A DNA stretch of 40,565 nt from an uncultured Bacteroidales bacterium (GTDB taxonomy: Bacteria; Bacteroidota; Bacteroidia; Bacteroidales; WCHB1-69). Location of the stretch: contig ONAB01000026.1 of NCBI GenBank assembly GCA_900315705.1, positions 1 to 40,565 on the forward strand, written 5' to 3'. This document shows, piece by piece, positions 10,048 through 31,610 of this stretch (position 1 is the first letter of the stretch; each line of letters opens with the position of its first letter). The notes beneath the pieces were generated by a model, which was not told the origin of the DNA, searched no databases, and was given only the letters and a program-made list of their open reading frames with translations. The translations under genes and the position numbers were made by a program.

Positions 10048-10134
10048 GGAGAGGTGGGTGAGTGGCTGAAACCAACAGTTTGCTAAACTGTCGTAGGGGA
10101 AACTCTACCGCGAGTTCGAATCTCGCTCTCTCCG
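10048..10134 (+). tRNA. tRNA-Ser (anticodon GCT), long variable arm, likely integration target
   Basis: The acceptor GGAGAGG pairs with TCTCTCC. The anticodon stem ACAGT/ACTGT encloses TTGCTAA, so the anticodon is GCT (AGC/AGU codons). A class II variable arm (GTAGGGGAAACTCTAC) and discriminator G are present, and CCA is not encoded. The tyrosine integrase gene begins about 150 bases downstream, so the 3' part of this tRNA is the probable attachment core. Confidence 0.95.
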
Positions 10135-10156
10135 CAAAAGTCCAAAACTTAATCAG

Positions 10157-16807: not shown

Positions 16808-19800
16808 CTACTGTTTTAGCGAAGCCGCCCTGCGGAGGAAGCTCTCCTGCTGCTCGAACTCAAGCTGGAGTTCCCGGCTGATGACCGCCTGCCTGTTCTT
16901 CGGGTCGCTCATGTACTGGCGCAGCGCGGTCACTTCCTCAAGCATCCTCACCATCGTCCCGTCATCCGCCTGCGCGGTGTGGTAGTGGTTGCTGGTGACG
17001 GCTCTCTCTGTTCTTTCGGGGGCAAATGTACGGCTTATGGAGGTGGCGGCTTGGGACACCGTGCGGCTGTCGGGAACGGCCATCTCAAGGTGTCGCAGGG
17101 GTGCTTTGTTACCCTTGCGCCACTCCTCAAGGGCTTCAATGACGGGCTTCGTTTCCGGATTCTCCACAATCTCGTTTGAGGCTATCCACTCCCTGCCCCT
17201 TTCGCCAGCCACGATGTTCTTCTCCCGCTCGATATAGCCGCCCTTGGCGTAGGGTTCCGGCTGCGAGGCAATGGCGGCGACCTGCACGCCCGTGGCGGCG
17301 AGGGAGAGAGCCATGGAGATGAGCCCCCACGGGAAGCCGCCGCCGTTCTCGAAGCTCTTCACGGCGGCCACGATGCCGGAGATTATGGCCTCCGCGATGG
17401 CCGCTTTCTTCTCCCTGCGGAACTGCTCTATTTCCAGCTGCTTCTCCTTGGCGTCGCGCTCCTTGTCCAGCTGTTCCACCTGCGCGTTGTAGTATTCCTG
17501 CGAGATGATGCCCTGCTCCAGCTGCCAATCCAGCTTCTTTTTGCGCTCGTCATAGCCCTTCCTGTACTCGTTGAGGGCGGCTTTCTCCTTGTTGCTCTGA
17601 AGCTGATTGATGGACTCGAAGAGCTGCATGGCGGTGTTGGCGAAGTCCTGGATCACGTCGGCGATGTCCGACAGGTTCTTCTCCCAATCCTTCTTGAAGT
17701 TCTTCCAGTCTATCTCAAGGAGTTTGCCGATGCCCGTGGTGGCCTTGCCCTTTTTGGCCGACTTCCCTATCGCGGCGGTTTCCTCGTCCATCTTCTGCTT
17801 GAGGGCTTTTATCTGCTCCTCAAGCTGCCGGATGCGGTCTTGGTTCTCCTGCTCGCCCAATGCCTTGAGCTTGGCGATGGCGGACTGGGCGGCGGAGATT
17901 TTCGCCTGGTACTCCTTTTTCACCGCCGCGATGCGCTTTTCGGTCTCCGTCATCAGCGCTTCGGTGATGTCGGCCTCGGCACGCCGCACGATGGAGAGTT
18001 CCTCCTGCGCTTCGAGGGCTACGGCCTGCCGCTTCTGCTCCAGCAGGTCTTCAAGCAATCTCAGTTCGTCTTCGTTGAGGCCTGTCCCCGTTTCGGGGTT
18101 GTACTCCTCTTTTGCCTTGCTCTCGTAATATGCAATGCTCTTGTCAATCTCGGCGATGGTGGAACGCCATTTCTGCTCCACCTGCAGCAGTTCCGTGGAA
18201 TAGGTGTCGGTGAGGCTTTGGTTGAGCTTCTCCTTTATGGTCTGGAACTGCTCGCACAGCTTGTCGTACTGCTGCGTGACCTTCTTCATCTGTTCGGCAC
18301 GGGCGGCGCGGTCAATCTCTTCGATGGCGTTAGCCATATATTTTCTCACTTCATCGGCGAGGTCTTTGGCCGCCTGCCCCTTGCTGTTGGTGAAAGCCTC
18401 GATGCGCTCCACGAGGTCGCCGTACTCCTGCCGGATTTTCTCCTTGTCGGCGGCTACCTTGTCCAAACCGATGAGTTCGTCCTTTTGGAAGAGTTTCTTC
18501 ACCTCCTTTTGGAGGTTCTCCCATTCGGTCAGCTTCTTCTTGGAGACCTCTTCGGCGGTCTCGCCGCCTGTGCCGCCGCCACCGTCGCCGCTGGTCTCGC
18601 CCTCAATGTCGGCGATGACAGCGTCCAGCTGGTCGCCGATCCACGGGGCGAGGTTCTGTTTCACCTTCTCAATCTTGGCCTGCTCCTCCTGCACAATCTT
18701 GGTGACGTTGCGGATCCAGAACTCCTCCTTGTCGTTCAGCTTCCTGTCCTTGAGCAGGTAGCGGTTAAGGTTGCGGATGATGCCTTCGGCGTTCATGCCG
18801 CCCTCCGCCAGTTCCACCGCCTTGCCGCCGATTTCCGGCGAGAGGTGCTTGAGCGAGGTGCCGAGTCTGTCCATCTCCTTTTTCATCACCTCCGTTATCT
18901 GCTCCTGCTGGATGTCAAGGGCTATCTTGCGCTTCATGGCGGTGATGACCTTGTTGTAGGCCTGCTCGATGTCAAGGATGTTGCCCTTCTCGTCCAGCTG
19001 GTCCTGGAGAATGGTCGGGTAATTCTCTATGATTTTCTTCTGTACCTTGTTGTACTCGTCCGTCCCTTTTCGCAGTTCGCGCAATGCCCCGAAGAGCCTG
19101 TCTGCTTCCGCTTTCTGCTCTGCGGTGCGCTCGTGGAAGTCCTTCATGGCTTTCTGCGCCGCCGTGGTGCGGGTGGCCAGCTTGTAGATGGCCGTGCCAG
19201 CCGCTACGATGGCGGTGGCGAGCGCGACCCACGGCACGGCGTTGGTCGAGGCGTTCATTTTCCTGACCGCTGCCGCCGCCCTTTCGGTGTTGCCCGCCAT
19301 CTTCGCTTGCGCTGCGGCCACGGCATAAACCGCCGTCTTGTAGGCGGCTTTGATGACCACTCCGGCTTTCTCCGCCGCCGTGAGCAGCAGCAGACGCGTT
19401 TTCAGCAGCGTGACCTTGGCAATGTAGAGAGTCAAAGGGGCGATTATGGCCAGCACCACACCCTTGTTCTTGCTGATCCAAGTTGTTGCGCTTGATATGG
19501 CCTTGATGCCCGCCGTGCTGGTCTTGGTCAGCTTCAGCAGTATCGGGTAGAGCTTTTGTCCCAGTTCGAGGCGGGTATCCTGGAACTTCTTGCGGGCTTT
19601 CTCCAAGCTGGCCTGCATGTTGTTGTTCTTGACGGAGAACTCCTCGTAGCAGGACACGCCCTCCAGCATGGCTCTGTTGGCCACCTGCTGCGCGGCCTCC
19701 ACCTTGTCGAGGCTGTTGGCCATTGACGATATGGCGGCGGCGGCGCGTGCGCCGTCCAGTCCCAAGTCTTGGAAGATGGGCAGCAGCTTGTCGAAGCCGC

Positions 19801-20788
19801 CCGCACCGGAGAATCCCTTGAGCACTTTCTTCAGTGCCTCGTTCATGTCGGTCTCTATGAGCTGCTTGAACTTGCCGAGTTCCATTCCGGCAATCTTGGC
19901 GAACTCTGCGGGCTTGGATATGACTTTTTGGATGAGCTTTTGGAAAGCGGTGGCGGACATCTCCACCTTCTGCATGTCCTGGTCCAACGCGGAGGCGAAG
20001 CCGAGGATTTGGTCGGCGGCGAGTCCGGCTTGGACGGCGACGCCGCCGAGCCGCCCCGTGAAGTTGACCATGTACTGCTCGTTGGCGGTGCTGGTCTTGC
20101 CCAGCTCGTTGACGGCGGAACCAAGCGAAAGGAGTTGCTCTTTGAGCGACTTGTCCTTGAGCATGTCGGTGGACTTCTTATAGACGTCCACCATCTTGCC
20201 GATGGCCAGTGTTGCGTCATCACCAAGCACGTCCCCCATGGAGACGTTGATGATGTCCGCCGCCTCTACGAACTGCTGCACCAGCTCCTTTGAGGAGATG
20301 CCCAGCTTGCCCGCGATGTAGGCGAGGTTGTTGAGCTGCTCGCGGCTGGTGCGGGTGTCCAGGTTCTTGAAGCTCTCGTTGAGTTCCTCCACCTGCTCGC
20401 GGGTCAGTCCCGTGGTCTTGATGACGTCGGAATATACATCGTCCATGGCGGCGAGGTCGGTGGCCACCTGCTTGAGGGTGGAGGTCACGTTGTCGAGGGA
20501 AGAGAGGATCTGCGTCAGGCCTCCGATGCCCGTACCGAACTGCAGCACCTTGTTGTACATTTCACTCCACGCAGAGGCGGCGGAGCCGATGTTCTGCGCG
20601 TGCTCCTTGAGGTACTGGCGCAGTTCGCGGATTTTCTTGGCGTGGGCGATGTACTCGTCAGAACCGATGACCATGCGGTTCTGCTCGTTCACGAGCTTGT
20701 TCATTTCCGCCCGTATCTGCTTGACGGAGGCCTCCACCTCCTTGCCGTTGATGTAGATGGTTACCCTGCGGGTACTGCTCTTTGCCAT
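16808..20788 (-). CDS. Phage tail tape measure protein
   Basis: A 1,326-residue protein with the classic tape-measure layout. An N-terminal TIGR01760-like core (about 60-400) reads LAAMDDVYSDVIKTTGLTREQ and ELVQQFVEAADIINVS. Hydrophobic stretches follow at about 435-460 and 490-560, then long coiled coils (about 740-1,120), a Gly/Ala-rich hydrophobic patch (about 1,165-1,205), and a C-terminal segment with YAKGGYIER. Tape measures set tail length and are threaded in the tail tube. It has its own -7-like element (CATCTTTG, 20,805-20,812) directly after the foreign block, so it may be expressed although the operon is split upstream. The length predicts a long flexible tail if the usual length rule holds. 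Confidence 0.93.
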   Translation of the reverse strand: MAKSSTRRVTIYINGKEVEASVKQIRAEMNKLVNEQNRMVIGSDEYIAHAKKIRELRQYLKEHAQNIGSAASAWSEMYNKVLQFGTGIGGLTQILSSLDNVTSTLKQVATDLAAMDDVYSDVIKTTGLTREQVEELNESFKNLDTRTSREQLNNLAYIAGKLGISSKELVQQFVEAADIINVSMGDVLGDDATLAIGKMVDVYKKSTDMLKDKSLKEQLLSLGSAVNELGKTSTANEQYMVNFTGRLGGVAVQAGLAADQILGFASALDQDMQKVEMSATAFQKLIQKVISKPAEFAKIAGMELGKFKQLIETDMNEALKKVLKGFSGAGGFDKLLPIFQDLGLDGARAAAAISSMANSLDKVEAAQQVANRAMLEGVSCYEEFSVKNNNMQASLEKARKKFQDTRLELGQKLYPILLKLTKTSTAGIKAISSATTWISKNKGVVLAIIAPLTLYIAKVTLLKTRLLLLTAAEKAGVVIKAAYKTAVYAVAAAQAKMAGNTERAAAAVRKMNASTNAVPWVALATAIVAAGTAIYKLATRTTAAQKAMKDFHERTAEQKAEADRLFGALRELRKGTDEYNKVQKKIIENYPTILQDQLDEKGNILDIEQAYNKVITAMKRKIALDIQQEQITEVMKKEMDRLGTSLKHLSPEIGGKAVELAEGGMNAEGIIRNLNRYLLKDRKLNDKEEFWIRNVTKIVQEEQAKIEKVKQNLAPWIGDQLDAVIADIEGETSGDGGGGTGGETAEEVSKKKLTEWENLQKEVKKLFQKDELIGLDKVAADKEKIRQEYGDLVERIEAFTNSKGQAAKDLADEVRKYMANAIEEIDRAARAEQMKKVTQQYDKLCEQFQTIKEKLNQSLTDTYSTELLQVEQKWRSTIAEIDKSIAYYESKAKEEYNPETGTGLNEDELRLLEDLLEQKRQAVALEAQEELSIVRRAEADITEALMTETEKRIAAVKKEYQAKISAAQSAIAKLKALGEQENQDRIRQLEEQIKALKQKMDEETAAIGKSAKKGKATTGIGKLLEIDWKNFKKDWEKNLSDIADVIQDFANTAMQLFESINQLQSNKEKAALNEYRKGYDERKKKLDWQLEQGIISQEYYNAQVEQLDKERDAKEKQLEIEQFRREKKAAIAEAIISGIVAAVKSFENGGGFPWGLISMALSLAATGVQVAAIASQPEPYAKGGYIEREKNIVAGERGREWIASNEIVENPETKPVIEALEEWRKGNKAPLRHLEMAVPDSRTVSQAATSISRTFAPERTERAVTSNHYHTAQADDGTMVRMLEEVTALRQYMSDPKNRQAVISRELQLEFEQQESFLRRAASLKQ

Positions 20789-20804
20789 AAACGTTAAGTT
20801 TTGG

Positions 20805-20812
20805 CAAAGATG
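20805..20812 (-). promoter_or_regulatory. -7-like element and conserved leader before the tape measure
   Basis: The minus strand reads CATCTTTG, then GCCAAAACTTAACGTTT and the ATG at 20,788. The same leader, with TATCTTTG, precedes the first late gene at 35,941. It is one mismatch from the TAnnTTTG consensus. Confidence 0.5.
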
Positions 20813-20825
20813 CTTTAAACGTCCG

Positions 20826-20966
20826 TCACATTTTGGGACGGTTACGGGAAAACGCAGTCGTTGGCTTTGACTGCGTTTTTGTCTTCCTTAATACCGCGAC
20901 AACGATAGGAATGGTTACGAGCGGCTTGCCGCGAAGTTTGAATGGATAGCGTGCCCGGTCGCCCAC
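20826..20966 (-). pseudogene. Remnant of a phage tail gene cut by the cargo block
   Basis: A GC-rich open stretch between the AT-rich cargo and the tape measure reads VGDRARYPFKLRGKPLVTIP and continues IVVAVLRKTKT before ending at a TGA at 20,826-20,828. It has no start codon of its own, since the frame closes upstream at about 20,979 in cargo-like DNA. The pattern of a short strand, RG-x-PLVTIP, then VL-KTKT is reminiscent of the DUF6046 type of Bacteroidetes tail proteins, but I could not confirm this. It sits where a major tail or tube gene should lie, between the tail-completion gene and the tape measure. A terminator hairpin now occupies its 3' half. Confidence 0.45.
20849..20883. terminator. 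Bidirectional terminator ending the RiPP operon
   Basis: AAAACGCAGTC (20,849-20,859) pairs perfectly with GACTGCGTTTT (20,869-20,879) around a 9-base loop. There are T tracts on both strands. It would end leftward transcripts from the ABC exporter gene (stop at 21,012). Confidence 0.8.
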
Positions 20967-21011
20967 CTCTAAAACATATTAAATAAATAAGTCTCTTGCA
21001 TAGAAAAAGGT

Positions 21012-23195
21012 TTATTTTCCTAATTCCAACTGGTCTTTTACTAATGTAAAATATTTCCCTTTTAACTTTGTTAGTTGAGCATGCGTGCCTTGTTCTACAA
21101 TTGTTCCTCTGTCAAGAACAACAATATTATCTGCCTTTTTTACTGTACTTAATCGATGAGCTATTATCACAACTGTTTTTCCTTCAAAATAATTGTTCAG
21201 ATTCTCCATTATCTTTCTTTCATTTTTAGCATCTAAAGAATTAGTTGCCTCATCAAAGAACAGATATTCTGGATTTTTATAAATAGCTCTTGCTATTAAT
21301 ATGCGTTGTCTCTGCCCTCCGCTTATGGGTAGTCCCGTTTCTCCGATTTTTGTATCCAAACCCATGGGCATTGAGCTGATGAAATCCCGCAGGCAAGACA
21401 GCTTTATGGCTTGCTCAAGGAGGTTCTGATTGATATTCTTTTCGTCTAACGTGATATTTTGTTTGATGCTTCCGCTGAATATGTAGCCGTTTTGCATAAC
21501 CACCCCGCAGTGACGTCGCCAATCGTCGCAACTTATTCGGGAAATATCATGATTACCTATGAGCAGTTCCCCTTTTGTTGGTAAATAAAAACCCATCAAT
21601 AGTTTCAGTAAGGTTGTCTTACCGCTTCCACTAACGCCAACAATAGCTGTAACTTGTTGTTTATTGATTTTCAAATTGATGTCATTGAGGACATTGCGAC
21701 TGTTCGTTCCGGGATATTTGAAATCTACATGTTCGAAATAGATGTTAGCTTGTAGTGATTCCTTTGAAATAGGTTCTTTGTCTCCGTCGTTCTCTTTGGG
21801 ATGCCCTGTTACCTCTTGAACTCGATTGTTTGAAAGTTTTGCATATTGAGCTTGTCTTGAAAATTTCAACAATTGATTAATAGGACTCGTAATCTGTCCT
21901 AAAAGGAAACTTATGGTCATCATTGTCCCGATAGTCATTTGATCATTGACAACCAAAAAGGCGCAGATCCCTGTGACAAACAAATTCATGACATTGTCAA
22001 TAAACCCTATTCCTTCTGAAAAAAATGTTTCAAGAAAAAAAGATTTGAGTTGATATTTGTTGATTTTTTCTTGAAAGGCAGTCCAATCTCGTATTCGAAC
22101 CTCTTGAGAATTATTGATTTTAATATCAGGCATCCCCATAATTGTTTCATAAATTGAATTTCTACGGGAGGATTCGAATGAAAATAGAGAATAGTCAATC
22201 TGTCTTCTTTTTTGTGAAAACAACAACGTATAAAGCAATGACAGCGTGGTCCCACATACAAAGATAAGGAACACCATTGGATTGAAGTAGATGAGAATAG
22301 AACTGAAAACCAATAGATTAAGAAATGTTAGTATCACACCACCTAATAAATCTACAATCAGGTTGTTTACCCTCTCCTGATCACTTATTCTTTGTATCAA
22401 ATCGGAACTGAAGCGTGTCTCAAAATAACTGATAGGCAAATCCACAATTTTTTTAAGGTATTTTGCAATAAGATTTGTTCCGAATGAAAAACCTGTTTTT
22501 AACAAAACAACCTTTGAAATGCTATTTGTAATGATAAAACCCACGTTGAAAAGCAATTGCGACATCAGCAATAACCATATCAAAGGGATATCCTTATTCA
22601 GTATGCCGTCATCAATTGTCTTTTTGAACAGCAACGGCATAATCCAAGTTATCGCCATGGATAGCAAAGTCAAAATCGAGATAATTGAGAAATGCTTCTT
22701 GTACAGATAAAAGATACGCCATGTGAGTTTCCGTAGAGGATGGTCCTTCGTCTTATCTGCATCTGGATTTTTAGTCTTGAAGGTGTCATCTGGCTCAACC
22801 AATATACAGACGATGCTATCATTGATGAACATTTTCTCTATAATTTCATTTTGCGAAAGACTTATTCTTCCGTCATCTGGGTCAATAATATGGAATCGTC
22901 TTTTCCTATCAATTTTTTCCAGAACCACAAAGTGGCCGGAATTAAAATAAAGGATGGCAGGGAGAGGTATCCTATAGATGTCATTGAGAGATATGCTGAC
23001 AGCAACACTCCTCAACCCGATTTCAGTACATATAGTAGAAATATCGCTGATTGTACAACCAATTCGCGATATTTCGCAAAATGATTTCAATGTTTGCAAT
23101 GAATATCTCCTCCCATAGAAGTGTGCAATCATCTGCACACAAGTCGGCCCACAGTCATTGCACTCCAACTGATGATAAACAGGAACCCTTCTCAT
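21012..23195 (-). CDS. Peptidase-containing ABC transporter (C39), double-glycine peptide exporter
   Basis: A 727-residue PCAT that cuts a leader after Gly-Gly and exports the core peptide across the inner membrane. The C39 domain (about 1-130) keeps Gln9, Cys15 (NDCGPTC), His88 (SGHFVVLE) and Asp105, so it should be active. Transmembrane helices span about 165-440. The nucleotide-binding domain has Walker A GVSGSGKTT (about 520-527), signature ISGGQRQR, Walker B YLFFDEATNSLD and H-loop AHRLST. Its start overlaps the barrel gene stop as TAATG, so translation is coupled. The double-glycine precursor encoded at 26,983-27,234 is its obvious substrate. No HlyD-type adaptor gene is next to it, which is unusual for two-membrane export. 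Confidence 0.95.
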   Translation of the reverse strand: MRRVPVYHQLECNDCGPTCVQMIAHFYGRRYSLQTLKSFCEISRIGCTISDISTICTEIGLRSVAVSISLNDIYRIPLPAILYFNSGHFVVLEKIDRKRRFHIIDPDDGRISLSQNEIIEKMFINDSIVCILVEPDDTFKTKNPDADKTKDHPLRKLTWRIFYLYKKHFSIISILTLLSMAITWIMPLLFKKTIDDGILNKDIPLIWLLLMSQLLFNVGFIITNSISKVVLLKTGFSFGTNLIAKYLKKIVDLPISYFETRFSSDLIQRISDQERVNNLIVDLLGGVILTFLNLLVFSSILIYFNPMVFLIFVCGTTLSLLYTLLFSQKRRQIDYSLFSFESSRRNSIYETIMGMPDIKINNSQEVRIRDWTAFQEKINKYQLKSFFLETFFSEGIGFIDNVMNLFVTGICAFLVVNDQMTIGTMMTISFLLGQITSPINQLLKFSRQAQYAKLSNNRVQEVTGHPKENDGDKEPISKESLQANIYFEHVDFKYPGTNSRNVLNDINLKINKQQVTAIVGVSGSGKTTLLKLLMGFYLPTKGELLIGNHDISRISCDDWRRHCGVVMQNGYIFSGSIKQNITLDEKNINQNLLEQAIKLSCLRDFISSMPMGLDTKIGETGLPISGGQRQRILIARAIYKNPEYLFFDEATNSLDAKNERKIMENLNNYFEGKTVVIIAHRLSTVKKADNIVVLDRGTIVEQGTHAQLTKLKGKYFTLVKDQLELGK

Positions 23196-25591
23196 TACAA
23201 TCTTTCTTGAATCGTACTATTCCGTCTTTGGGAGCCTTTGGTTTCGCGATTTCCAAAACGCATACTGTAGGAAATCCAGTATGTTCTCCCATAAACGTGG
23301 GAATAGTGTGTATATATGTAATTCTGTGTTGCGAGCGACTCCTTGCTTTGCCAGTCAAGAATATCATCAACTCCAAATGAAATGGTTCCGCTCTTGAATT
23401 GCTTTGTGATGTGGACATTCCAGTTCACACTTTGATTGAGATTGCCTCCTACATAAGAGGATATGGGAACATAATCCAAAGTGGTTGACAATTTCCAATC
23501 TTTCTTTTTACAAAGTGCTGTTGATATGGAAAGATTGATGGAGAACTCGCTTCCCTTGACATTAAATGCCGTAATCCTCGGACTCTTAATCCTGTATAGA
23601 TCAAATTCATAATAGATGCTGGCAGACAACAAGACGTAATTTTTGAAAAGCTGTTGGTCAGTTTCCAGCTCAATGAAAAAGAAATGTGCATTGCCATAAT
23701 TCTCATCCGTAATTCGGGTGGAATTGGATTCTGGGGTTGGAATGCGGAATTCATTCCAAATATTTTGAGAATAGGAGTATCCCAAAATCAACATATAATC
23801 CCAAAAAAGGGTGTATGAAAGTTCTGCATCATATATCCTACAAGGACGCAAGTCAATATTATTCTCTCTGTATAATGTCGGGGAATAATAGTATCTGAAA
23901 GGATTCCTTTTCGCATAACTAGGAATAACCTGGCGACTGGTGAAATCCAGAGCAAATTCATGGTCGTCATTAGGAATAAAAACGAGGGAAAAAGACGGGA
24001 AGAGATTGAGGTATTTATTGGAGATGGTTTCTTTTGTGACCTGCTGTTGCCCATGATAAAGATAAAACTCACCTCGCAAGCCGGCTGAAATCGACCACAT
24101 GTCGGATATTTCCCAGTCACAGGTAGCATACAATGCTGCGGTTATATCCTTGTAAACGAAGTGGTTGCTTTGGTCAAACCCCTCCATATACGCTGCTGAT
24201 TGTTCTATGTTTGAGGTGTAATCGTCGTCAACCACGCTCCCGTAGCATTCCAATCCTGTTCGCAAATTCAAGGTCTTGCTGAATTTGTGGCTGTATTTTG
24301 CCTTGAAATCGATTCCATTGACGACCGCCGCACTGCTTGTGAAATAGGATGCCATTTCATGCGAAGGGAATCTCTGGTTTCTGTTTGTGTAAGATGAGAT
24401 ACTTTGGTTCCTCGTGTAAAAAATATCGAAAGTCAGCAATTGCTTGTCATTGATTTTCATATTGTAATTAAGATTGGTAAAAAGTGAAAAATTAGGCATG
24501 TTCGATATCTGGCAGGAAGAAGTGATATCGGAGGAATCTGCCAGATTCCTATGTCTATGGTAATAATCACTACGGGTACCCGTGCTGTCGAGCAGACAAT
24601 GGCTGATATTCGTTCCCGCTTGGAATCCCAAGGTGTGCTTTTCGTTGATGTGCCATTCCATCATCGCATAAATATTTTCGCAAAGCACTCGGCTTCGGCT
24701 CAAACTCTGAAAAGCATTCGTTGTTGTATCGTTGTCAGCAAAGTGGTGATGGGCGCTCTCTGTTCCGCTACGGTTAGGTCTATATATCGTTGAGAAACTT
24801 ATGGTTGCATTAACGTTTTTCTTCTGTAGTATCACAAAGGCATCCAAAGAAGGGCTGTTGAGTTCCCATCGTTCCTTTTGCCTATCCTTGACAATCAGTG
24901 TGGCTGCAACCCCGTCAGACGGGTTCTTCCGTAATATAACGTTCAGTATCCCATTTTTCACTGTGGAAGGGAATTCGCTTCCAGGATTTATTATAACCTC
25001 TATTCTCTCAATGTTCTCTGCAGGAATATTCTTCGGATCAAGATTGCTAGGTCTTCCATTGATGTAAATAGTAGCTTTACCTTTGTGTAATATTTCAAGC
25101 TCATCCTTAGACGTGACATTCACCAATGGGACATATCTTAGAATCTCTACAGCATTGTGTCCAGAAGCCAATGGTGATGTGTAAACATTGTTGATGGCAT
25201 ATCTGTCAGGCTTTCGCTCAATGGATAGCGCATTCGCAGAGATCGAGACTTCCTCCAATTCTGTCCAATCTCGATCAAGAATAAAACTCGTCTGACTTAT
25301 GGCCAATCGTGTGGGTATCTGAATGGCGCGGTAACCGAAAGCCTTGACATAAACATTGGTTTTCTCAATATCTTGTGGCAACAACAATTCAAAGATCCCG
25401 TTTGTATCTGAAATGCTTGAGGAAAGTTCCTTGTTGTCACCAGAAACAACAGCCACCACAGCCATTTGTATTGGCAAGCCGTCCCCATCTGTCACCCTCG
25501 CCTGTATAATCGACTGCGAACAAAGATTGTTGCGGAGTACAATCGTCAAGCACAGAATCATCATAATCCTAATGAAAGAAGAATTTTTCAT
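23195..25591 (-). CDS. TonB-receptor-like outer-membrane beta-barrel of the RiPP cluster
   Basis: A 798-residue protein with signal peptide (about 1-25), a carboxypeptidase-regulatory-like beta domain (about 28-110), a plug-like region (about 120-225, including GKATIYINGRPSNLDP and IERIEVIINPGSEFP), then a large barrel rich in aromatic strands to the C-terminus (OMP_b-brl_3 style). It is shorter than SusC proteins and has no SusD partner. It lies 18 bases after the radical SAM gene and overlaps the exporter start, so it is part of the peptide operon. It could pass the mature peptide across the outer membrane, take it up for sensing, or protect the producer. The sequence does not decide. The last residues (after MRFGNRETKG) extend beyond a typical barrel end. 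Confidence 0.85.
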   Translation of the reverse strand: MKNSSFIRIMMILCLTIVLRNNLCSQSIIQARVTDGDGLPIQMAVVAVVSGDNKELSSSISDTNGIFELLLPQDIEKTNVYVKAFGYRAIQIPTRLAISQTSFILDRDWTELEEVSISANALSIERKPDRYAINNVYTSPLASGHNAVEILRYVPLVNVTSKDELEILHKGKATIYINGRPSNLDPKNIPAENIERIEVIINPGSEFPSTVKNGILNVILRKNPSDGVAATLIVKDRQKERWELNSPSLDAFVILQKKNVNATISFSTIYRPNRSGTESAHHHFADNDTTTNAFQSLSRSRVLCENIYAMMEWHINEKHTLGFQAGTNISHCLLDSTGTRSDYYHRHRNLADSSDITSSCQISNMPNFSLFTNLNYNMKINDKQLLTFDIFYTRNQSISSYTNRNQRFPSHEMASYFTSSAAVVNGIDFKAKYSHKFSKTLNLRTGLECYGSVVDDDYTSNIEQSAAYMEGFDQSNHFVYKDITAALYATCDWEISDMWSISAGLRGEFYLYHGQQQVTKETISNKYLNLFPSFSLVFIPNDDHEFALDFTSRQVIPSYAKRNPFRYYYSPTLYRENNIDLRPCRIYDAELSYTLFWDYMLILGYSYSQNIWNEFRIPTPESNSTRITDENYGNAHFFFIELETDQQLFKNYVLLSASIYYEFDLYRIKSPRITAFNVKGSEFSINLSISTALCKKKDWKLSTTLDYVPISSYVGGNLNQSVNWNVHITKQFKSGTISFGVDDILDWQSKESLATQNYIYTHYSHVYGRTYWISYSMRFGNRETKGSQRRNSTIQERL

Positions 25592-25609
25592 AAAGCAATG
25601 TTTTTCAGT

Positions 25610-26902
25610 TTATTGGAATTTGCACTTGTTTTTCACAACATAATTATAGAATCTGTTAAGAATAATATCTTGCTTTTTTTGTTCATCAATTCCGTAAATG
25701 CAGACATTATCCTTCTGCTCTTGGCGTTTTTGTATGCACCCTCCGCCACATAAGGGGAAAATCGAGCAAGTCGAACATATTTGATGAGGTAATATGTTGG
25801 TTATTCTTTCCTTTGGTGTGCCTTGCATCCAAACGACACTACCATCATCCTTTAAAAAACCATGCCGACTCTCTTTAGAAAAATCACGAGCAGTACATTT
25901 GTACACATCCCCATTGTAATTTACTAATAGCTGGTTAACACAATCTGCGTAGCAGGGGTGGTGTAAATAGTCAAGATCAAGCAACGGTGAAGTTATTTCG
26001 AATCCCCCCTCCCTAAAAAGTTTCATCGTTGGTCTAATTTCAAGTTCCTTCGCCCCGTCCTGCCAGATGCGCTGCAGATCCACCTGGACATACTTTCTAT
26101 CTTCCTCATTCCATTTTTTTATATCACTTAAAATCGATAAAATTGATGAAAAATTTTTAGCCGTATAGTTGATACGGAGAATTACAGGTATCTGATTTTC
26201 AAGCAAACAATGAATATTACGAATGATTATATCGTAGGTTCCAACATTGCCTTTGGTAAAACGAGTTTTATCATGCTCTTCTTGAGCTCCATCCAATGTG
26301 ATTTGAAATGTAACATCCAACTTGTTTTCCTTGAAAAAAGACACCATTTCATCATTGATTAAAACCCCATTTGAGGTAAATGAGATTCCAAGTGCAATAC
26401 TTTTTTTCTCGCAACACACCAATGAGTGTAGGATGATTTTCCGAACAGAATCAAACTCTAATAATGGTTCTCCCCCAAAAAAAGAAAGAATCAGCTTCTT
26501 GATATTTCGTTGCTCTATGCATTTTTTTGAAATCAAGCCAAGAATGCTATTCATTATTTCCGAGGATATAGATGACCCTTTTACGTGTTTTTCGTAACAA
26601 TACCAGCAATGTAAATTGCAATCCAAAGTCGGATTTATCATCAGATGAAAAACCCCTGATTCCAACCTGATTTTTTGAGAATTTCTCAACTGTTTCTTGT
26701 ACTCGTCTTCCTCATTTGAAACTATAGCACCAGCACCACATAGTTCATTGTACAAATCCTCATTCAATCGCCTCAATTCAGCAGGTGGATTATTCAGCCA
26801 ATTGCCCCCCATAATTAAGACAAAAGAATCGGAAGCCGAATTATAAACAGCCTTCACCGTGTCTGTTAGATCGATAAAGTTGTTATATATGCTGTATTTC
26901 AT
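25610..26902 (-). CDS. Radical SAM/SPASM peptide maturase
   Basis: A 430-residue radical SAM enzyme with an N-terminal peptide-engaging region (about 1-85). The cluster motif CNLHCWYC has Cys95, Cys99 and Cys102 in CxxxCxxC spacing. The barrel includes SFFGGEPLLEFD, SFTSNGVLINDE and FQITLDGAQEEHD. A C-terminal SPASM domain carries auxiliary iron-sulfur cysteines in HPCYADC, YKCTARDF and CSTCSIFPLCGGGC. This architecture installs thioether or carbon-carbon crosslinks in RiPP precursors. The start at 26,902 (MKYSIYNN) is chosen over an upstream ATG at 26,929 because the longer start lies inside the intergenic hairpin. It is encoded 80 bases after the precursor and would modify the cysteine-rich core. 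The exact linkage cannot be read from sequence. Confidence 0.92.
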   Translation of the reverse strand: MKYSIYNNFIDLTDTVKAVYNSASDSFVLIMGGNWLNNPPAELRRLNEDLYNELCGAGAIVSNEEDEYKKQLRNSQKIRLESGVFHLMINPTLDCNLHCWYCYEKHVKGSSISSEIMNSILGLISKKCIEQRNIKKLILSFFGGEPLLEFDSVRKIILHSLVCCEKKSIALGISFTSNGVLINDEMVSFFKENKLDVTFQITLDGAQEEHDKTRFTKGNVGTYDIIIRNIHCLLENQIPVILRINYTAKNFSSILSILSDIKKWNEEDRKYVQVDLQRIWQDGAKELEIRPTMKLFREGGFEITSPLLDLDYLHHPCYADCVNQLLVNYNGDVYKCTARDFSKESRHGFLKDDGSVVWMQGTPKERITNILPHQICSTCSIFPLCGGGCIQKRQEQKDNVCIYGIDEQKKQDIILNRFYNYVVKNKCKFQ

Positions 26903-26912
26903 ACACAGAGAT

Positions 26913-26968
26913 TTAACACACACCTCCAACGATGTTACTCAGATTTGAGTAGTTGAAGGTGTGTGTAA
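26913..26968 (-). promoter_or_regulatory. Nested hairpin between precursor and radical SAM gene
   Basis: The outer arms (26,913-26,930 and 26,952-26,968) pair through ACACACACCT/AGGTGTGTGT and CAAC/GTTG. An inner perfect hairpin is TACTCA-GATT-TGAGTA (26,936-26,951). It begins 14 bases after the precursor stop and ends 10 bases before the maturase ATG. It has no T tract, so it more likely stabilises the precursor message or limits maturase translation than terminates. Confidence 0.75.
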
Positions 26969-26982
26969 TTATGTAGCAAAAC

Positions 26983-27234
26983 TTATTTGGTTGTACCTGA
27001 GCCTTGATTGTCACAAATTCTTCTGTTTATCGCATCATCGCATTTGCTTTGGTTCACACAATATACACGATTTCTGGAAGAATCGCAGCTGCTATTTGTA
27101 CAATCTCTGTTGTGACTAAGACCACCAATCAAATTTGGCAAAACGGATATCGTCATCATTTGTCTTTCACTTAAAACAGACTGCTCTAACGAATTAACAA
27201 ATTCTGTAATCTCTGAATATTTAGCAGGTTTCAT
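26983..27234 (-). CDS. Double-glycine RiPP precursor peptide, cysteine-rich core
   Basis: An 83-residue peptide gene immediately upstream of the radical SAM gene. The acidic helical leader (residues 1-38: MKPAKYSEITEFVNSLEQ and on) contains LSERQMMTIS and ends SVLPNLIGG, a typical double-glycine site for a C39 peptidase. The predicted core is residues 39-83 (45 residues), with five cysteines at core positions 7, 12, 21, 27 and 36 (spacing 4, 8, 5, 8). Four of them are followed at +1 or +2 by Asn or Asp. The core has many Asn, Asp, Arg and Ser and few hydrophobics. An odd cysteine number favours thioether crosslinks over plain disulfides. It is similar in style to GG-Bacteroidales natural-product precursors. 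No clear promoter was found (TATGTTTA at 27,260-27,267 is near consensus). Confidence 0.88.
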   Translation of the reverse strand: MKPAKYSEITEFVNSLEQSVLSERQMMTISVLPNLIGGLSHNRDCTNSSCDSSRNRVYCVNQSKCDDAINRRICDNQGSGTTK

Positions 27235-27342
27235 AATACATTAATTTTCTTTTCTTAATTAAACATACTTCCCTCTTCCCCGCAGGGTGTGCTGGCACTT
27301 TGCACGGCACTTTCGGGTCTGTCATTCGAAACGGAAAAATTG

Positions 27343-27350
27343 TATCTTTG
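27343..27350 (+). promoter_or_regulatory. -7 element for a rightward transcript
   Basis: TATCTTTG, a perfect TAnnTTTG match, immediately upstream of the structured candidate small RNA. No clear -33 TTTG was found. Confidence 0.55.
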
Positions 27351-27356
27351 CCGCTT

Positions 27357-27485
27357 GATTACTGTGCCATCGCGTGACAGACATCACGATATATGCGACC
27401 TAAGGTGCTTTGCGGCAGGGAACATCGCTAATGGTTCCTTAAACACAAATGCGATGCCCCTGCTTGGGCACCTTTCTTTTCTTGC
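27357..27485 (+). ncRNA. Candidate structured small RNA, opposite to the RiPP operon
   Basis: A perfect -7 element at 27,343 would start a transcript that folds into two nested helices. The first is TCGC/GCGA (27,370-27,373 with 27,395-27,398) enclosing GTGA/TCAC. The second is a long arm with three stacked perfect helices: AAGGTGC/GCACCTT (27,402-27,408 with 27,468-27,474), GCAGGG/CCCTGC (27,415-27,420 with 27,458-27,463) and CATCGC/GCGATG (27,423-27,428 with 27,451-27,456). A T-rich tract follows (27,472-27,481), as at a terminator. A 6S-like RNA of the Bacteroidetes type or an element-specific regulator are alternatives. Not matched to any family here. Confidence 0.5.
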
Positions 27486-27520
27486 TCCGCTATCGGTCCG
27501 TTGCACACCATAACGGAGCT

Positions 27521-27595
27521 TTACCCAATGAATTTGTTCTTGCCTGACCATTGCAGGTCAGAGGCGTCGGTTTCTATGTGAATTACTTTTTTCAT
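27521..27595 (-). CDS. Possible 24-residue peptide or leader ORF
   Basis: ATG at 27,595, reading MKKVIHIETDASDLQWSGKN to a TAA at 27,521. A purine-rich GAAGAAGAAG lies just upstream on the minus strand, better than most ribosome sites here. Its end overlaps the first hairpin of the spacer. It could be a leader peptide, a gene fragment or chance. Confidence 0.25.
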   Translation of the reverse strand: MKKVIHIETDASDLQWSGKNKFIG

Positions 27596-27662
27596 GCTTC
27601 TTCTTCTCATTCAGCCGCAAGGATGCGGCGGCTCCTAATTTCTCATTCCTAATTTCTCATTC

Positions 27663-28163
27663 CTAATTGTTTGAGTACGCTGCTGTTTCGCTGAAGAAGA
27701 GTCCCGTGAATGTGAACTGCAGGGTCGTGGTGTCACGATAGATCATCTGCCCGGGGATGTTCAGGAAGATGTGGTTGCCCTTCTCGTCCGTGTAGTTCAG
27801 CGAGCGATCCGGCACGAGGAAGAAGTCCTCCGAAGTCAAATCGAACGTGTCCGTTGTGGTGGCGGTAACTGCGGTACCTATTTGTTGTAGCTGGACAGCA
27901 AACGTATATGCACATTCGTCACCTGCCCCCATACAATTGATATGTATGCGATGTCCGTCCATCATCACACATCCTTTACAATCTTTGCTGCTATGTCCCA
28001 TGCTCATTGCAAACAGGTGTGTTGAGTTTCCTGTTTTGGCGTTGCCAGACAGTGCAACCACACGGTTGAGTGTTTGTTCTTGTGTTGCTGTTTGGTTTTC
28101 CACTTTTTCACATGCGCCAAGCAACGTGACCGCAAGCAGTGTCAATGTCAATACTTTTTTCAT
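27663..28163 (-). CDS. Cysteine-rich putative lipoprotein, divergent from the LytTR regulator
   Basis: A 166-residue protein with a type II signal peptide (MKKVLTLTLLAVTLLGAC, lipidated Cys18). Mature region residues 60-85 contain four cysteines and several His (DCKGCVMMDGHRIHINCMG and DEC: Cys62, 65, 77, 84), a possible metal or disulfide site. The remainder is a soluble beta-rich domain ending in LQFTFTGLFFSETAAYSNN. A -7 element and two direct repeats lie upstream, so it is the likely target of the divergent regulator. No family was recognised. It could sense or bind the neighbouring peptide, or give immunity, but nothing beyond position supports this. Confidence 0.75.
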   Translation of the reverse strand: MKKVLTLTLLAVTLLGACEKVENQTATQEQTLNRVVALSGNAKTGNSTHLFAMSMGHSSKDCKGCVMMDGHRIHINCMGAGDECAYTFAVQLQQIGTAVTATTTDTFDLTSEDFFLVPDRSLNYTDEKGNHIFLNIPGQMIYRDTTTLQFTFTGLFFSETAAYSNN

Positions 28164-28204
28164 TGCGCTTTGATTTTGATGTTAATTCATTACTTTTTCG
28201 GCGG

Positions 28205-28212
28205 CAAAAGTA
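28205..28212 (-). promoter_or_regulatory. -7 element for the lipoprotein gene
   Basis: The minus strand reads TACTTTTG, matching TAnnTTTG, 42 bases before the ATG at 28,163. The direct-repeat operator lies just upstream of it. Confidence 0.65.
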
Positions 28213-28249
28213 CAAACTGTTTAAATACCATCAATCCCCTCACATCGTG

Positions 28250-28282
28250 AATATGAACCCCTCGTAATACAAATATGAACCC
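28250..28282. promoter_or_regulatory. Direct repeats AATATGAACCC, candidate LytTR operator
   Basis: AATATGAACCC occurs perfectly at 28,250-28,260 and 28,272-28,282, 22 bases from start to start. LytTR domains (AgrA, AlgR, VirR type) bind as dimers to 9 to 11-base direct repeats spaced about two helical turns. The site lies 38 bases upstream of the lipoprotein -7 element, the usual position for an activator. The divergent gene encodes a LytTR protein. Confidence 0.7.
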
Positions 28283-28293
28283 TTATCCCTTTA

Positions 28294-28303
28294 GGGGGGG
28301 GGG
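28294..28303. repeat. Homopolymer of ten G (rightward strand)
   Basis: Ten consecutive G residues, 11 bases beyond the direct repeats, in the divergent control region. Such tracts slip during replication and can switch expression. Here it does not sit between -7 and -33 of a recognised promoter. Confidence 0.8.
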
Positions 28304-28341
28304 TAGTGTATTGATATTCAGCGTGTTATTTAATTTATCAT

Positions 28342-28371
28342 TCCCTCGCATATCGTCAAATTTGCGAGGGG
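28342..28371. promoter_or_regulatory. Hairpin in the divergent control region
   Basis: TCCCTCGCA (28,342-28,350) pairs with TGCGAGGG (28,363-28,370) around a 12-base loop, upstream of the LytTR promoter. The rest of the 28,164-28,464 spacer holds the operator, G tract and promoters listed separately, and no gene. Confidence 0.6.
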
Positions 28372-28430
28372 ATTGTGGGTTTTTGTGTGAGGGATTGCAC
28401 AATTGCCGTGTCCTGTGTCGGAAAATTGAG

Positions 28431-28438
28431 TATCTTTG
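28431..28438 (+). promoter_or_regulatory. -7 element for the LytTR regulator gene
   Basis: TATCTTTG followed by C, a perfect TAnnTTTG match 27 bases before the ATG at 28,465. It rules against the longer frame that opens at 28,375. Confidence 0.65.
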
Positions 28439-28464
28439 CTGCCGTTTTCAAAAACATAATTGAT

Positions 28465-29649
28465 ATGAAGCGAAAAAAAACCGTTGTAACTATTGTGCTA
28501 AATGTCTTGTTCTGTGGCATAATGCTTTGGCTTTTTACCCGTAATTCCATCCTGCGACCATGTTCGGACAGCATTTACAAAGAGGCGCTTGCAGGATTAC
28601 TATTGTTAGGTTCACTGTATGTCAATTACTTTCTGTTGTATCCGAAAATCTATCGCAATCGTCCGCTCATATACTGGTTGGTGATAGTGGCCATGGCTGT
28701 AGTTTTGGGCTTTGTTGATTTGGCCATTGCATACAACGGCATTGTATCGTGTAATGCCCAGGTTATTCAATATGTTGGTCGCTTGAGCTTCTTCTCAAAG
28801 ATTCTGTTTTTTATCATTGGGCGTAATCTTGCCTTGAATTTCTTTCCTTTCTTGCTAAGGGAGCGGCAACATTTCCAACAGTCCTTAGAGAAAGAGGTAA
28901 AGGTCGTTTACCAAACAGTCCGAATGTTTGATGTGACAGATATAAAGAACAAGTTATATCTGGTCAACATTGATGACATCTTCTATTGCTACCAAGAGCG
29001 AAACAGTACCAGTGTCCATTTAGTGCAAGATGTATGTTATTATCGTCTTGGATCCATGAAACATCTTGAACAGCTGCTTGGAAATAAAGACTTCATCCGT
29101 ATTACAACCAATGTACTGGTACCTTTCCGTTACATCAGAGAGTGTAAAGACAATATGGTGATTATGAAAAAAATGTCTTGGGAAAATGAACCCACTATAT
29201 TCCACTTGGAACCCAAGACTCAGAAGGAGATTTCAAAAAGGGTGATAGAGGGTGTTCAGAGATACAGAGGAGAAGTCGCGGCTGGGGATAGAATCCCCAA
29301 AAAACCAACCCGCCGAAAAGTCAAGCGTAAACCGGCAAAACCTTCGGATGAGAAAACCCAAAAAGTGCTTTCTTACATAGAAAGCCACCCGAATTGCAAC
29401 TCAAAAGGGATTATTGATGGAACAAAAATCCCGTTGAGTAGTGTTGAACGTTGCATTTCCGTACTCAAAAAGCAAGGTCTCATCAAACACACTGGCAGCA
29501 AAAGGAATGGTGGCTACGATGTGGTCAGTCCTCGCCCGGAAAGAGAAAGAGTGGAATCTGTACAACAGGAGGAAAAGGGTACCACAATAAAATTAGTCCA
29601 AGAAACACACGACAAGGGAAAGCCCGCAGAACCGTCATCCAAGGAATAG
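28465..29649 (+). CDS. Membrane LytTR-family regulator fused to a C-terminal winged helix
   Basis: A 394-residue protein from the ATG at 28,465. Four hydrophobic helices (about 7-24, 41-58, 68-88, 108-128) anchor it. A LytTR DNA-binding domain follows (about 150-265, with KNKLYLVNIDDIFYCYQERN and LLGNKDFIRITTNVLV). After a basic linker (KPTRRKVKRKPAK) there is a second DNA-binding-like winged helix (about 305-370: QKVLSYIESHPNC through LKKQGLIKHTGSKRNGG). Membrane LytTR proteins usually stop after the LytTR domain, so the fusion is unusual. The helix resembles the C-terminal one in the AlbA_2 protein at 30,151. It is divergent from the cysteine-rich lipoprotein, with matching direct repeats in between. 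Confidence 0.85.
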   Translation: MKRKKTVVTIVLNVLFCGIMLWLFTRNSILRPCSDSIYKEALAGLLLLGSLYVNYFLLYPKIYRNRPLIYWLVIVAMAVVLGFVDLAIAYNGIVSCNAQVIQYVGRLSFFSKILFFIIGRNLALNFFPFLLRERQHFQQSLEKEVKVVYQTVRMFDVTDIKNKLYLVNIDDIFYCYQERNSTSVHLVQDVCYYRLGSMKHLEQLLGNKDFIRITTNVLVPFRYIRECKDNMVIMKKMSWENEPTIFHLEPKTQKEISKRVIEGVQRYRGEVAAGDRIPKKPTRRKVKRKPAKPSDEKTQKVLSYIESHPNCNSKGIIDGTKIPLSSVERCISVLKKQGLIKHTGSKRNGGYDVVSPRPERERVESVQQEEKGTTIKLVQETHDKGKPAEPSSKE

Positions 29650-29692
29650 GTCTCTTGCGATGCGGCAGCTGTTTGGTGCTGTGTTAGTTTTT

Positions 29693-30154
29693 CTACTGTT
29701 TCTTTACTCCGAAGAAGTTGACCAGACACTCGTCACCCCAAAATTCGGCTGCGAGGTCGAAGAGGCGTTCCGCGTTGCGGTCTATGGGTTCGTCTAACCA
29801 GTCCACCACGGAGCGGCGGATGCTGGGGTGCGGGTTCACGTACTTGCCGGGAACACGGGGCTGGCCGTAGCCCACCGCCCACTCCCGCCATATCCCGTGG
29901 ATAGGAATCTTGAAACTCACGGCCTCAGGGATTCCGCCATCATGCTCTATCTTGTACTGTATGCTGTTGCGGAGCTTGCGCTCCACCTTGCCGCTCTTCT
30001 TGGTTATGGAGGTGACCTTCTTGCCCTTGGTGAACCGCAGGGTGTTGCGCCTCGCGGCGTTGCGCACCGCCGCTGCCCACCGCCGCGCCTGCCGCAGGAA
30101 CTCCTCGGCGGTGAGGATGTTGGTGTCCGTGGTGTCGGTTATGGTGTGGTTCAT
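29693..30154 (-). CDS. Phage tail-completion (HK97 gp10-like) candidate
   Basis: A 153-residue basic protein starting at the ATG at 30,154, which overlaps the AlbA_2 stop as ATGA. The Lys/Arg-rich N-terminal half (TLRFTKGKKVTSITKKSGKV) and the segment ending FFGVKKQ fit small head-tail or tail-completion proteins, which lie just before the tube and tape measure genes. I would call it HK97 gp10-like at moderate confidence. It is the last late gene before the foreign block. The next expected gene, a tail tube or major tail protein, is missing and may be the remnant at 20,826-20,966. Confidence 0.55.
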   Translation of the reverse strand: MNHTITDTTDTNILTAEEFLRQARRWAAAVRNAARRNTLRFTKGKKVTSITKKSGKVERKLRNSIQYKIEHDGGIPEAVSFKIPIHGIWREWAVGYGQPRVPGKYVNPHPSIRRSVVDWLDEPIDRNAERLFDLAAEFWGDECLVNFFGVKKQ

Positions 30155-31581
30155 TGCTGCTGGTCTATTACTTCCCAATGGCCGTTCTTACGACCTCCAA
30201 TCCTTTTAAGGAGCTTCATTTCCTGCAATCTCGCCACGGCGTATTTGATTCCACTTGCGCTATATCCTTGCAACACCTGGTTCATAGTATCCCGTGTGGC
30301 AGTGGGATTGGCACCAAGAAAATCCAATACTTTCTGCTGTAAATCTGTCAGCTGCACCTTTTGGTCAGTCTTTTGGCCAGTCTTTTGGCCAGTCTTTTGG
30401 TCAGTCTTTTGGTCAGTCTTTTGGTCAGTTGTCGGGACCGCCTCAGCTTTCCTCCTTTCTGCTTCAATAAATGGCATCACACTGGGTGCTGCGTCGAACC
30501 GAACCATCAGGTCGCAAGGGTGGATGATGTAAACAGGTTCGGGCGAACCGTAATTGCGGCACGCCTTGCACATTTTTTCAATCCCGCGTCCCCAGGCTTC
30601 GATGAACCCCGCACGGAAAAACGTGTTGGCAATATTGGGATTTAGCAAAAGAGACTGATGGGAAGAAAGAAGTGTTTCCGCTGTCCAACCTTCGGTCAGC
30701 AAGCAACTGTTGGAAATAAACAACCTGTCATCCTCAACGCGGATTTGAATCGGGTTATTGGCCGACCAGTCTGAGTGTGCCAGCGCATTGAAAATGGCTT
30801 CTCTCACCGCCATTTTCGGAAACGGATAGGTTTCAACCCTGGTAATGTTTTCGTAGGTGATGAATGCCTTGAGGTACTTTTGGTACAGCAGATCCTGCAC
30901 ACGGTCGGCCTGCATCATCAGTGAGCCGTGAACCTCATCCATATACAAGATGTCGGCCTCTTTGTTGAACATTCCGATTTTGGTGTAACACCCTGTGACC
31001 AACTCTTCCGGCTCGCGGTAAAACAAGAGTACCGCCGCCCTTTTCAGCTTGCCATCAACGGTGAGTTTCAATCTTTCAAGCAATTCCTCATCAGAACAGG
31101 CGAGGTCGTCTTCTGTCATACGTTTGCTTCGCAGCGCCTCCCTGCGGAAAATATTGAAACTCTCTCTGTCAAGGTCCTGGTATGTGAAATTGTCAACGGT
31201 GACGGAATCCCATTTCGTTCCGGTTCGTTTAAGTAGAAAATGGGTGAGGGCGGAACCCTGCAGCGTCTGCAATGTCGCACCAGACCGAATGTAATAGTCT
31301 CCCTTGTAATTGAGAGGGAATCCGCACGGTTCGGTTTCGATTCTGATGTACGACTTGCCGTCTTCCGTCATCAAATCCACACCGACAATGATTCCCATCG
31401 CATTCTTCACCTTGTTGGGGATGTCCTCCAAGAGGCGTTTGGCGTTGTCCACACCGACCACCTCGCCCTTGTCGTTCATGCCGATGTAGAGCGTGCCGCC
31501 CTGCGCGTTGGCGAAACCGCAGATCCACTTCAGGTATTCGTCACGCCAAGACTCCTTGTATTCAATATTTTGCGTTTCCAT
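30151..31581 (-). CDS. AlbA_2-type ATP-binding protein with C-terminal winged helix
   Basis: A 476-residue protein starting at the ATG at 31,581 (METQNIEYKESW). An N-terminal AlbA_2/Schlafen-like domain (about 1-115: ESWRDEYLKWICGFANAQGG and YIGMNDKGEVVGV) is followed by a central domain with an ATPase-like helix box (FPKMAVREAIFNALAHSDW, about 270-285) and RAGFIEAWGRGIEKM. A TDQK/TGQK tandem repeat linker leads to a C-terminal winged helix. Such proteins are common in Bacteroidetes as putative regulators or defence-associated factors. It has its own promoter at 31,603 and sits in the middle of the late operon as a moron-like cargo gene, yet its stop overlaps the next phage start, so it is fully integrated. 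Confidence 0.85.
   Translation of the reverse strand: METQNIEYKESWRDEYLKWICGFANAQGGTLYIGMNDKGEVVGVDNAKRLLEDIPNKVKNAMGIIVGVDLMTEDGKSYIRIETEPCGFPLNYKGDYYIRSGATLQTLQGSALTHFLLKRTGTKWDSVTVDNFTYQDLDRESFNIFRREALRSKRMTEDDLACSDEELLERLKLTVDGKLKRAAVLLFYREPEELVTGCYTKIGMFNKEADILYMDEVHGSLMMQADRVQDLLYQKYLKAFITYENITRVETYPFPKMAVREAIFNALAHSDWSANNPIQIRVEDDRLFISNSCLLTEGWTAETLLSSHQSLLLNPNIANTFFRAGFIEAWGRGIEKMCKACRNYGSPEPVYIIHPCDLMVRFDAAPSVMPFIEAERRKAEAVPTTDQKTDQKTDQKTGQKTGQKTDQKVQLTDLQQKVLDFLGANPTATRDTMNQVLQGYSASGIKYAVARLQEMKLLKRIGGRKNGHWEVIDQQQ
30360..30430. repeat. In-frame 12-base tandem repeat (six units)
   Basis: Six copies of CTTTTGG(T/C)CAGT encode TDQK or TGQK repeats in the linker of the AlbA_2 protein. 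Copy number can change without shifting frame. Confidence 0.9.
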
Positions 31582-31602
31582 ACAACATTCAAATTCCGAC
31601 CG

Positions 31603-31610
31603 CAAAATTA
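31603..31610 (-). promoter_or_regulatory. -7 element for the AlbA_2 gene
   Basis: The minus strand reads TAATTTTG, a perfect TAnnTTTG match, 22 bases before the ATG at 31,581, in a 54-base AT-rich gap inside the otherwise tightly packed late operon. Confidence 0.65.

Follow-up and report, generated by a model that had tools for sequence, protein, structure and literature searches.

The window analysed here is the whole of contig ONAB01000026.1 (40,565 nucleotides) from an uncultured Bacteroidales bacterium, numbered C34 among the 47 contigs that make up its genome of ~3 Mb. It contains a low-GC block that encodes a radical S-adenosylmethionine (SAM) cluster for a ribosomally synthesized and post-translationally modified peptide (RiPP). 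The block lies between two genes of a phage tail operon, a gp10-like tail-completion candidate and the tape measure. This site is an exchange slot, and its carrier is a complete temperate phage of Bacteroidales integrated at tRNA-Ser. We consider it very probable that the block is a cargo cassette, composed of the radical SAM RiPP operon and a LytTR–lipoprotein module, in the slot of this phage; that judgement extends to the mechanism and role proposed below.

Slot contents were compared among 19 loci in which the gp10-like gene and the tape measure are both present (the short query of one search missed the tape measure of L095 and L097, which another search found). The contents were: (i) the RiPP cluster of the window in five loci (the window, G003, G011, G034 and G063:C63), (ii) a homologous RiPP cluster with a different gene order and a 49%-identical maturase in one locus from another genus (L076, G103), (iii) a graspetide RiPP cluster in one (L098, G046; TIGR04193 274.5 bits, cut-off 175; TIGR04192 205.4 bits, under its cut-off of 230), (iv) surface proteins of the PKD/type IX secretion system (T9SS) kind in three (L072, L114 and L115, the last two of which look like the same phage), (v) an RHS/SpvB-type protein of 3,002 amino acids in one (L068), (vi) a type I restriction–modification (R-M) system with a recombinase in one (L074), (vii) other small genes in five (L094, L096, L097, L116 and L065, where small unknown genes accompany a LytTR–lipoprotein pair) and (viii) nothing in two (L095 and L100), where ~345 bases separate the gp10-like gene from the tape measure. 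The slot ranges in size from 0.3 to 11.7 kb and, as in a hotspot, turnover between two conserved phage genes is high, with at least seven kinds of content in 19 loci. Anti-phage content is represented by the type I R-M system (1/19) and by a YefM/YoeB-like pair in L097, a possible toxin–antitoxin system as read by eye (1/19). Three further loci (L067, L078 and L113) carry cargo beside the tape measure, on contigs or stretches that stop short of gp10. A preliminary description of the window had proposed that the block was a later insertion in the tail operon, and the same operon was indeed found in relatives either without the block or with unrelated cargo. Its suggestion that a tail-tube gene belongs at the site was not borne out: the gp10-like gene directly precedes the tape measure in the two empty slots, so no tail-tube gene was displaced.

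Later insertion is also indicated by a near-identical cassette between diverged flanks. Over 18,000–20,500 (tape measure) G011 matches the window at 90.6, 88.8 and 93.0% identity; it has one mismatch in 20,439–21,000 and four in 21,000–29,390, and past 29,390 its identity drops and the Schlafen/AlbA gene is missing; genes further right are 85–95% identical. G003 is 88–91% identical to the window up to 18,926 and then identical to 31,778, save for runs of N and two mismatches; past 31,778 the blocks examined are 86.5–99.2% identical and the next genes to the right 86.5–95%. We read these patterns as marks of homologous replacement and of a recent move of the cassette. Because the cassette is near-identical in G003 and G011 while the adjoining phage genes are ~85–95% identical, it appears to move by recombination. 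Near-identical cassettes are present in five genomes, which would be consistent with a phage transferring production to a new host. The RiPP genes are not always found at this position: in G064 (L079) the cluster, 89% identical in DNA and with a 92%-identical maturase, is located elsewhere among a series of small operons, and the stretches fetched contained no match to the tape measure or gp10.

The expected step in composition was found at both edges of the block. The best two-break segmentation placed the changes in GC content at 20,780 and 29,745 (0.604, 0.400 and 0.576 for the successive segments). GC content at third codon positions was 0.79–0.87 in the phage genes listed, that of AlbA excepted (0.60), and 0.31–0.56 in the block.

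Chromosomal genes occupy the window up to tRNA-Ser (10048–10135). The tyrosine integrase, tail genes and tape measure follow, and beyond the low-GC block leftward phage genes fill the rest of the contig. The contig end overlaps the end of contig C22 of the same genome by ~100 bases, and the genes of both contigs are found in one stretch in G003. From the exact 33-base copy of the tRNA 3' end on C22 (Table 1), the prophage is ~47 kb in size, the window being its left part and C22 its right part with the 33-base attachment (att) repeat; the prophages of G016 and G084 have 29-base repeats and sizes of ~44 and ~46 kb. The RiPP cluster therefore sits between the att sites of a single prophage, and the tail genes on its two sides do not belong to separate elements. 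Within the same att-bounded element, C22 encodes a head-maturation protease (phrog_94) and a primase (phrog_6444), which rules out a tailocin or headless tail element; the carrier, at first described as a tail element, is a whole temperate phage with integrase, head-maturation protease and primase. Other genes on C22 we take, from their position and sequence motifs, to encode capsid, tail tube and terminase. INPHARED contained no DNA match for 16808–31605; the tape measure had matches in 53 INPHARED records, with 27–30% of it covered among the ten matches listed.

The RiPP cluster first described at this site was confirmed by Pfam and PHROGs searches (Table 1). A radical SAM enzyme adjoins both a leader–core precursor and a C39 exporter, the arrangement of a radical SAM RiPP cluster. 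The double-glycine precursor, radical SAM enzyme, barrel, C39 exporter, lipoprotein and LytTR regulator of the preliminary description all stand. The radical SAM gene had no match to the Pfam SPASM model at E ≤ 0.001, and its SPASM assignment comes from partial alignments to SPASM-type maturases, far under their cut-offs, and from a Cys pattern read by eye. 'TonB-type' is a weak label for the barrel because its TonB Plug score is 17.3 bits, under the cut-off of 23.9; the barrel also carries a carboxypeptidase-regulatory domain. The true start of the maturase is likely an internal ATG at residue 10. In the precursor, Cys spacing in the core alternates between short and long (by eye), and homologues 83% (G064) and 41% (G103) identical keep the GG and five Cys, four of which are in register in all three sequences. 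The LytTR gene points rightward, all other block genes lying on the opposite strand.

Table 1. Features of the prophage part of the window and of the RiPP block (window coordinates)
Feature	Position	Strand	Evidence or remark
attL, tRNA-Ser 3' end	10107..10139	+	exact 33-base copy at C22:254215-254247
Tyrosine integrase of prophage	10282..11550	+	PF00589 76.8 bits; phrog_1
Tail fibre protein	13990..14673	-	PF03406 56.9 bits; several tail-fibre PHROGs
Tape measure, left flank of slot	16808..20788	-	phrog_25337 E 4.2e-47; PF10145
Conserved boundary element, cargo 3' end	20847..20964	-	terminator hairpin 20848-20880
C39 peptidase/ATP-binding cassette (ABC) exporter	21012..23195	-	PF03412 87.4 bits; PF00664; PF00005
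Outer-membrane beta-barrel, 798 amino acids	23195..25591	-	PF14905 193.8 bits
Radical SAM peptide maturase	25610..26929	-	PF04055 50.9 bits
Precursor peptide, 83 amino acids	26983..27234	-	IGG leader end, then five-Cys core; no family match
Leader repeat upstream of precursor	27343..27545		found once in the genome; precedes several G064 operons
Lipoprotein	27663..28163	-	no Pfam match; divergent pair with LytTR in most loci fetched
Membrane LytTR/winged-helix regulator	28375..29649	+	PF04397 37.1 bits; PF13412 24.6 bits
gp10-like tail-completion candidate, right flank of slot	29693..30178	-	no family match; name from position
Schlafen/AlbA protein, second insertion	30151..31605	-	PF04326; PF13749; absent in L070, L068, L072, L114

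The AlphaFold model of the gp10-like protein has a mean predicted local distance difference test score of 53. The 3' part of the Schlafen/AlbA gene contains a short tandem repeat (window 30360–30420) encoding TDQK/TGQK units, where G003 has a run of N.

The LytTR–lipoprotein pair resembles a module of host type that moved together with the RiPP genes, since LytTR homologues are present in 38 of the 41 genomes of the genus and a lipoprotein gene adjoins LytTR in 14 of the 20 loci fetched (hand-picked, not random). Graspetide genes occur in only 2 of these 20 loci, so a general tie between LytTR and RiPPs is weak. The pair was seen beside islands that carry a graspetide cluster and another radical SAM/C39 RiPP cluster in L140 (G032:C112, 1–14400) and L133 (G025:C59, 400–13400). 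L240 (G030:C10, 9106–10817) has a LytTR homologue and a 96%-identical gp10-like gene in convergent orientation; the fetched stretch contains no tape measure, and this site is another slot or a remnant. The leader repeat of ~200 bases precedes at least five small operons in G064 (L079, G064:C11, 2900–15300), and it includes a Bacteroidetes-type promoter motif, pointing away from the genes.

What had been taken for a coding remnant at the left edge of the block is a conserved non-coding element. Copies of the segment 20826–20966 differ by 1-nt steps and have stops in some reading frames (by eye), so it is not a gene end; the end of a tail gene was also rejected because copies of the segment occur at places other than the tape measure. 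The element starts abruptly with GGGCGACCGGGCACGCT and continues for ~75 bases to a terminator hairpin. Homology from the tape-measure side ends at 20964/20965 in 13 loci and at 20840/20841, before the element, in six more. The copies share one sharp edge, before which their sequences all differ. A 25-base pattern of the element (one mismatch allowed) was found in 40 of 105 genomes of the family (reversed control, 0/105), and among 393 genomes drawn from the whole order a covariance model detected it in four, of which three belong to the same genus and the fourth, in another family, is a weak match. Relatives at a greater distance have the slot without the element (L074, L076, L094, L096, L098, L100 and L116). 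It marks the end of cargo in three phage slots as well as in orphan units. Of 54 distinct sites, 22 are followed by the tape measure, whole or fragmentary, 6 by P269, a gene on the tail-tube side, and 22 by another or no recognised gene; the other 4 fall between terminase and RadC. A cargo-query match lies within 3 kb before the element at 18 of the 54. In alignment A1, from which 4 of 47 distinct copies that diverge early were excluded, the arms covary, with 16 of 26 predicted pairs changed on both sides; columns 18–61 are paired in all 43 copies (A-U 24, U-A 19). Four folds of the single-strand DNA were no better than shuffles (z −0.47 to +1.80) and Rfam had no match to the element, results on which a stable RNA was rejected. 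The element is possibly a protein-bound dyad, a recombination site or plain linker homology.

Copies of the element accompany cargo at several other places. The same prophage has two further cargo sites (L126, C22 of the same genome, 9091–11352 and 14491–16080; window 40337–40565): one holds a 137-amino-acid membrane protein before a boundary element, downstream of the tail-tube-like gene, and the other a lipoprotein and a barrel-like gene after the terminase-like gene. Tandem cargo units lie at tRNA-Ser in L081 (G025:C35, 1–9900) and L093 (G025:C45, 9480–14260), each in the order tRNA 3' end, terminator, tape-measure codons 1 to 46–52, boundary element, cargo, transposase-like fragment (our reading) and next tRNA 3' end; no integrase was seen in these units. 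Orphan N-terminal pieces of the tape measure stand beside the element and cargo in L088, L089 and L091, where all three are 59 codons long with the same end point, and at other loci; they are apparently remnants of decayed prophages. Outside intact phage, ends of RHS-type proteins occur with small next genes and boundary elements in L127 (C4 of the same genome), L180, L185, L190, L191 and L194. Some of these loci carry tape-measure or terminase fragments, and they resemble orphan toxin–immunity units.

We propose that shared flanks allow cassettes to be exchanged by homologous recombination. On one side these would be the tape-measure 5' end and the boundary element, and on the other gp10, AlbA or the 3' end of LytTR. 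Within the lysogen, expression would be under the control of the LytTR protein, the radical SAM enzyme would cross-link the Cys-rich core, and the C39 transporter would cleave after GG and export the peptide; the barrel, at the outer membrane, may pass the product, take it up or protect from it. By inhibiting competing Bacteroidales the peptide would benefit the lysogen and through it the phage. Judged from the genes, the modified peptide is most likely an antimicrobial against such competitors, and the phage lineage looks like a carrier swapping probable weapon genes among hosts.

It is somewhat unlikely, though clearly conceivable, that the cluster is not a weapon and that its peptide serves in signalling, carries metals or nutrients, or targets other phages entering the lysogen. 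A barrel of TonB-receptor type with a carboxypeptidase-regulatory domain would suit such roles, as would the LytTR regulator, regulators of this kind often being tied to peptide signalling, and similar slots hold R-M and possible toxin–antitoxin genes; however, the double-glycine leader, the C39 exporter and the exchange with RHS-type and graspetide cargo fit interbacterial conflict. For the exchange itself, the boundary element might be the site of a dedicated mechanism that joins cargo precisely there and not by passive homology; it would then be a protein-bound dyad or a folded single-strand recombination site. The sharp common edge beyond which copies differ, the recurrence of one element in three phage slots and orphan units, the covarying arms (columns 18–61, for example) and the similar cargo proteins that precede it in different settings all favour this, but no recombinase is linked to the element, the crossovers in G011 and G003 fall outside it (in the tape measure, at the LytTR end and beyond AlbA), single strands fold no better than shuffles and distant relatives have slots without it, so that we regard the idea as improbable. 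A broader version, to which we give similarly little credence, is a phage lineage with several slots, each closed at its 3' end by a terminator and the shared dyad element, which would enable precise exchange: a weapon-cassette system with its own recombination site. Its exchange partners would be slots, phages and chromosomal units at tRNA genes, and its cargo RiPPs, RHS-type proteins with possible immunity neighbours, and surface proteins. That the junctions are artefacts of assembly or binning, a chromosomal RiPP island having been joined to phage contigs, is largely refuted and extremely improbable. The sources are metagenome assemblies and the GC content of the block resembles that of chromosomal islands, but both junctions recur in five assemblies with differing flank divergence, and a divergent homologue stands at the same place in a sixth (L076).

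Several observations weigh against a cargo cassette exchanged by homologous recombination in a complete phage. The analysis rests on metagenome assemblies. In G034 identity drops on the right side only, the left being identical to the window without a mosaic, and G063:C63 is identical over its 13.9-kb contig apart from one gap, flanks included, so that there is no mosaic there either; this identity may come from transfer or misbinning. The exporter of G064 is split into two open frames. Pfam and PHROGs gave no match for the putative capsid, tail-tube and terminase genes on C22. The maturase is far under every NCBIfam cut-off shown (at best 149.5 of 600 bits), and the block showed no HlyD or TolC partner. 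Viral contigs of IMG/VR contained no relative of the maturase, and its matches in 55 INPHARED records were 22–27% identical among the ten listed, none of them close; the cassette has therefore not yet turned up in a viral record.

A temperate phage with a replaceable tail-operon slot would give peptide and protein weapons a possible way to spread among uncultured gut Bacteroidales, as each new lysogen acquires the cargo immediately. Two unrelated RiPP classes occupy the slot, which is therefore a place to seek new peptides and toxins. The system would also allow a direct test of whether bacteriocin cargo and phage fitness are linked, and through the boundary element it can be asked how phages go on exchanging large inserts within a tail operon.

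Among named maturase families, the nearest by score are CefB (NF038107, 149.5 bits) and PapB (NF047865, 118.4 bits), which share a Cys-rich substrate with the window maturase; the latter scores far under their cut-offs (600 and 340 bits), and the core of the window precursor has alternating short and long Cys spacings. Grasp-with-spasm graspetide clusters occupy the same slot in G046 and lie beside the LytTR–lipoprotein pair in G032 and G025, although their RiPP class differs from that of the window. As an imperfect dyad the boundary element is only loosely similar to integron attC sites. Prophage-borne bacteriocin gene clusters were reportedly described by Dragos in 2021. According to a review, biosynthetic clusters are found in up to 3% of prophages and are mostly bacteriocins (PMC7616364); the window shares with them a biosynthetic cluster inside a temperate phage and differs in that its cluster lies in a replaceable tail-operon slot, the same site in relatives holding other RiPP classes and non-RiPP cargo. 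The accessible part of PMC10352776 contains no word starting with 'phage', and no description of the slot, cassette or boundary element was recognised among the papers listed by searches of open-licence PMC articles. The best analogue of the slot is provided by the P2/P4 hotspots, in which cargo turns over between two conserved phage genes and exchange by homologous recombination was proposed (PMC9122126). Those hotspots are 1–5 kb in size, next to cos, and hold mostly anti-phage systems, whereas the Bacteroidales slot has gp10-like and tape-measure flanks, often RiPP or toxin-like cargo and, in most close relatives, a shared 3' element; its size of 0.3–11.7 kb also places it outside the P2/P4 set, hotspot-like as it is. 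Phage cargo hotspots and prophage-borne bacteriocin clusters are thus known, whereas this slot, its range of cargo and its boundary element look new.

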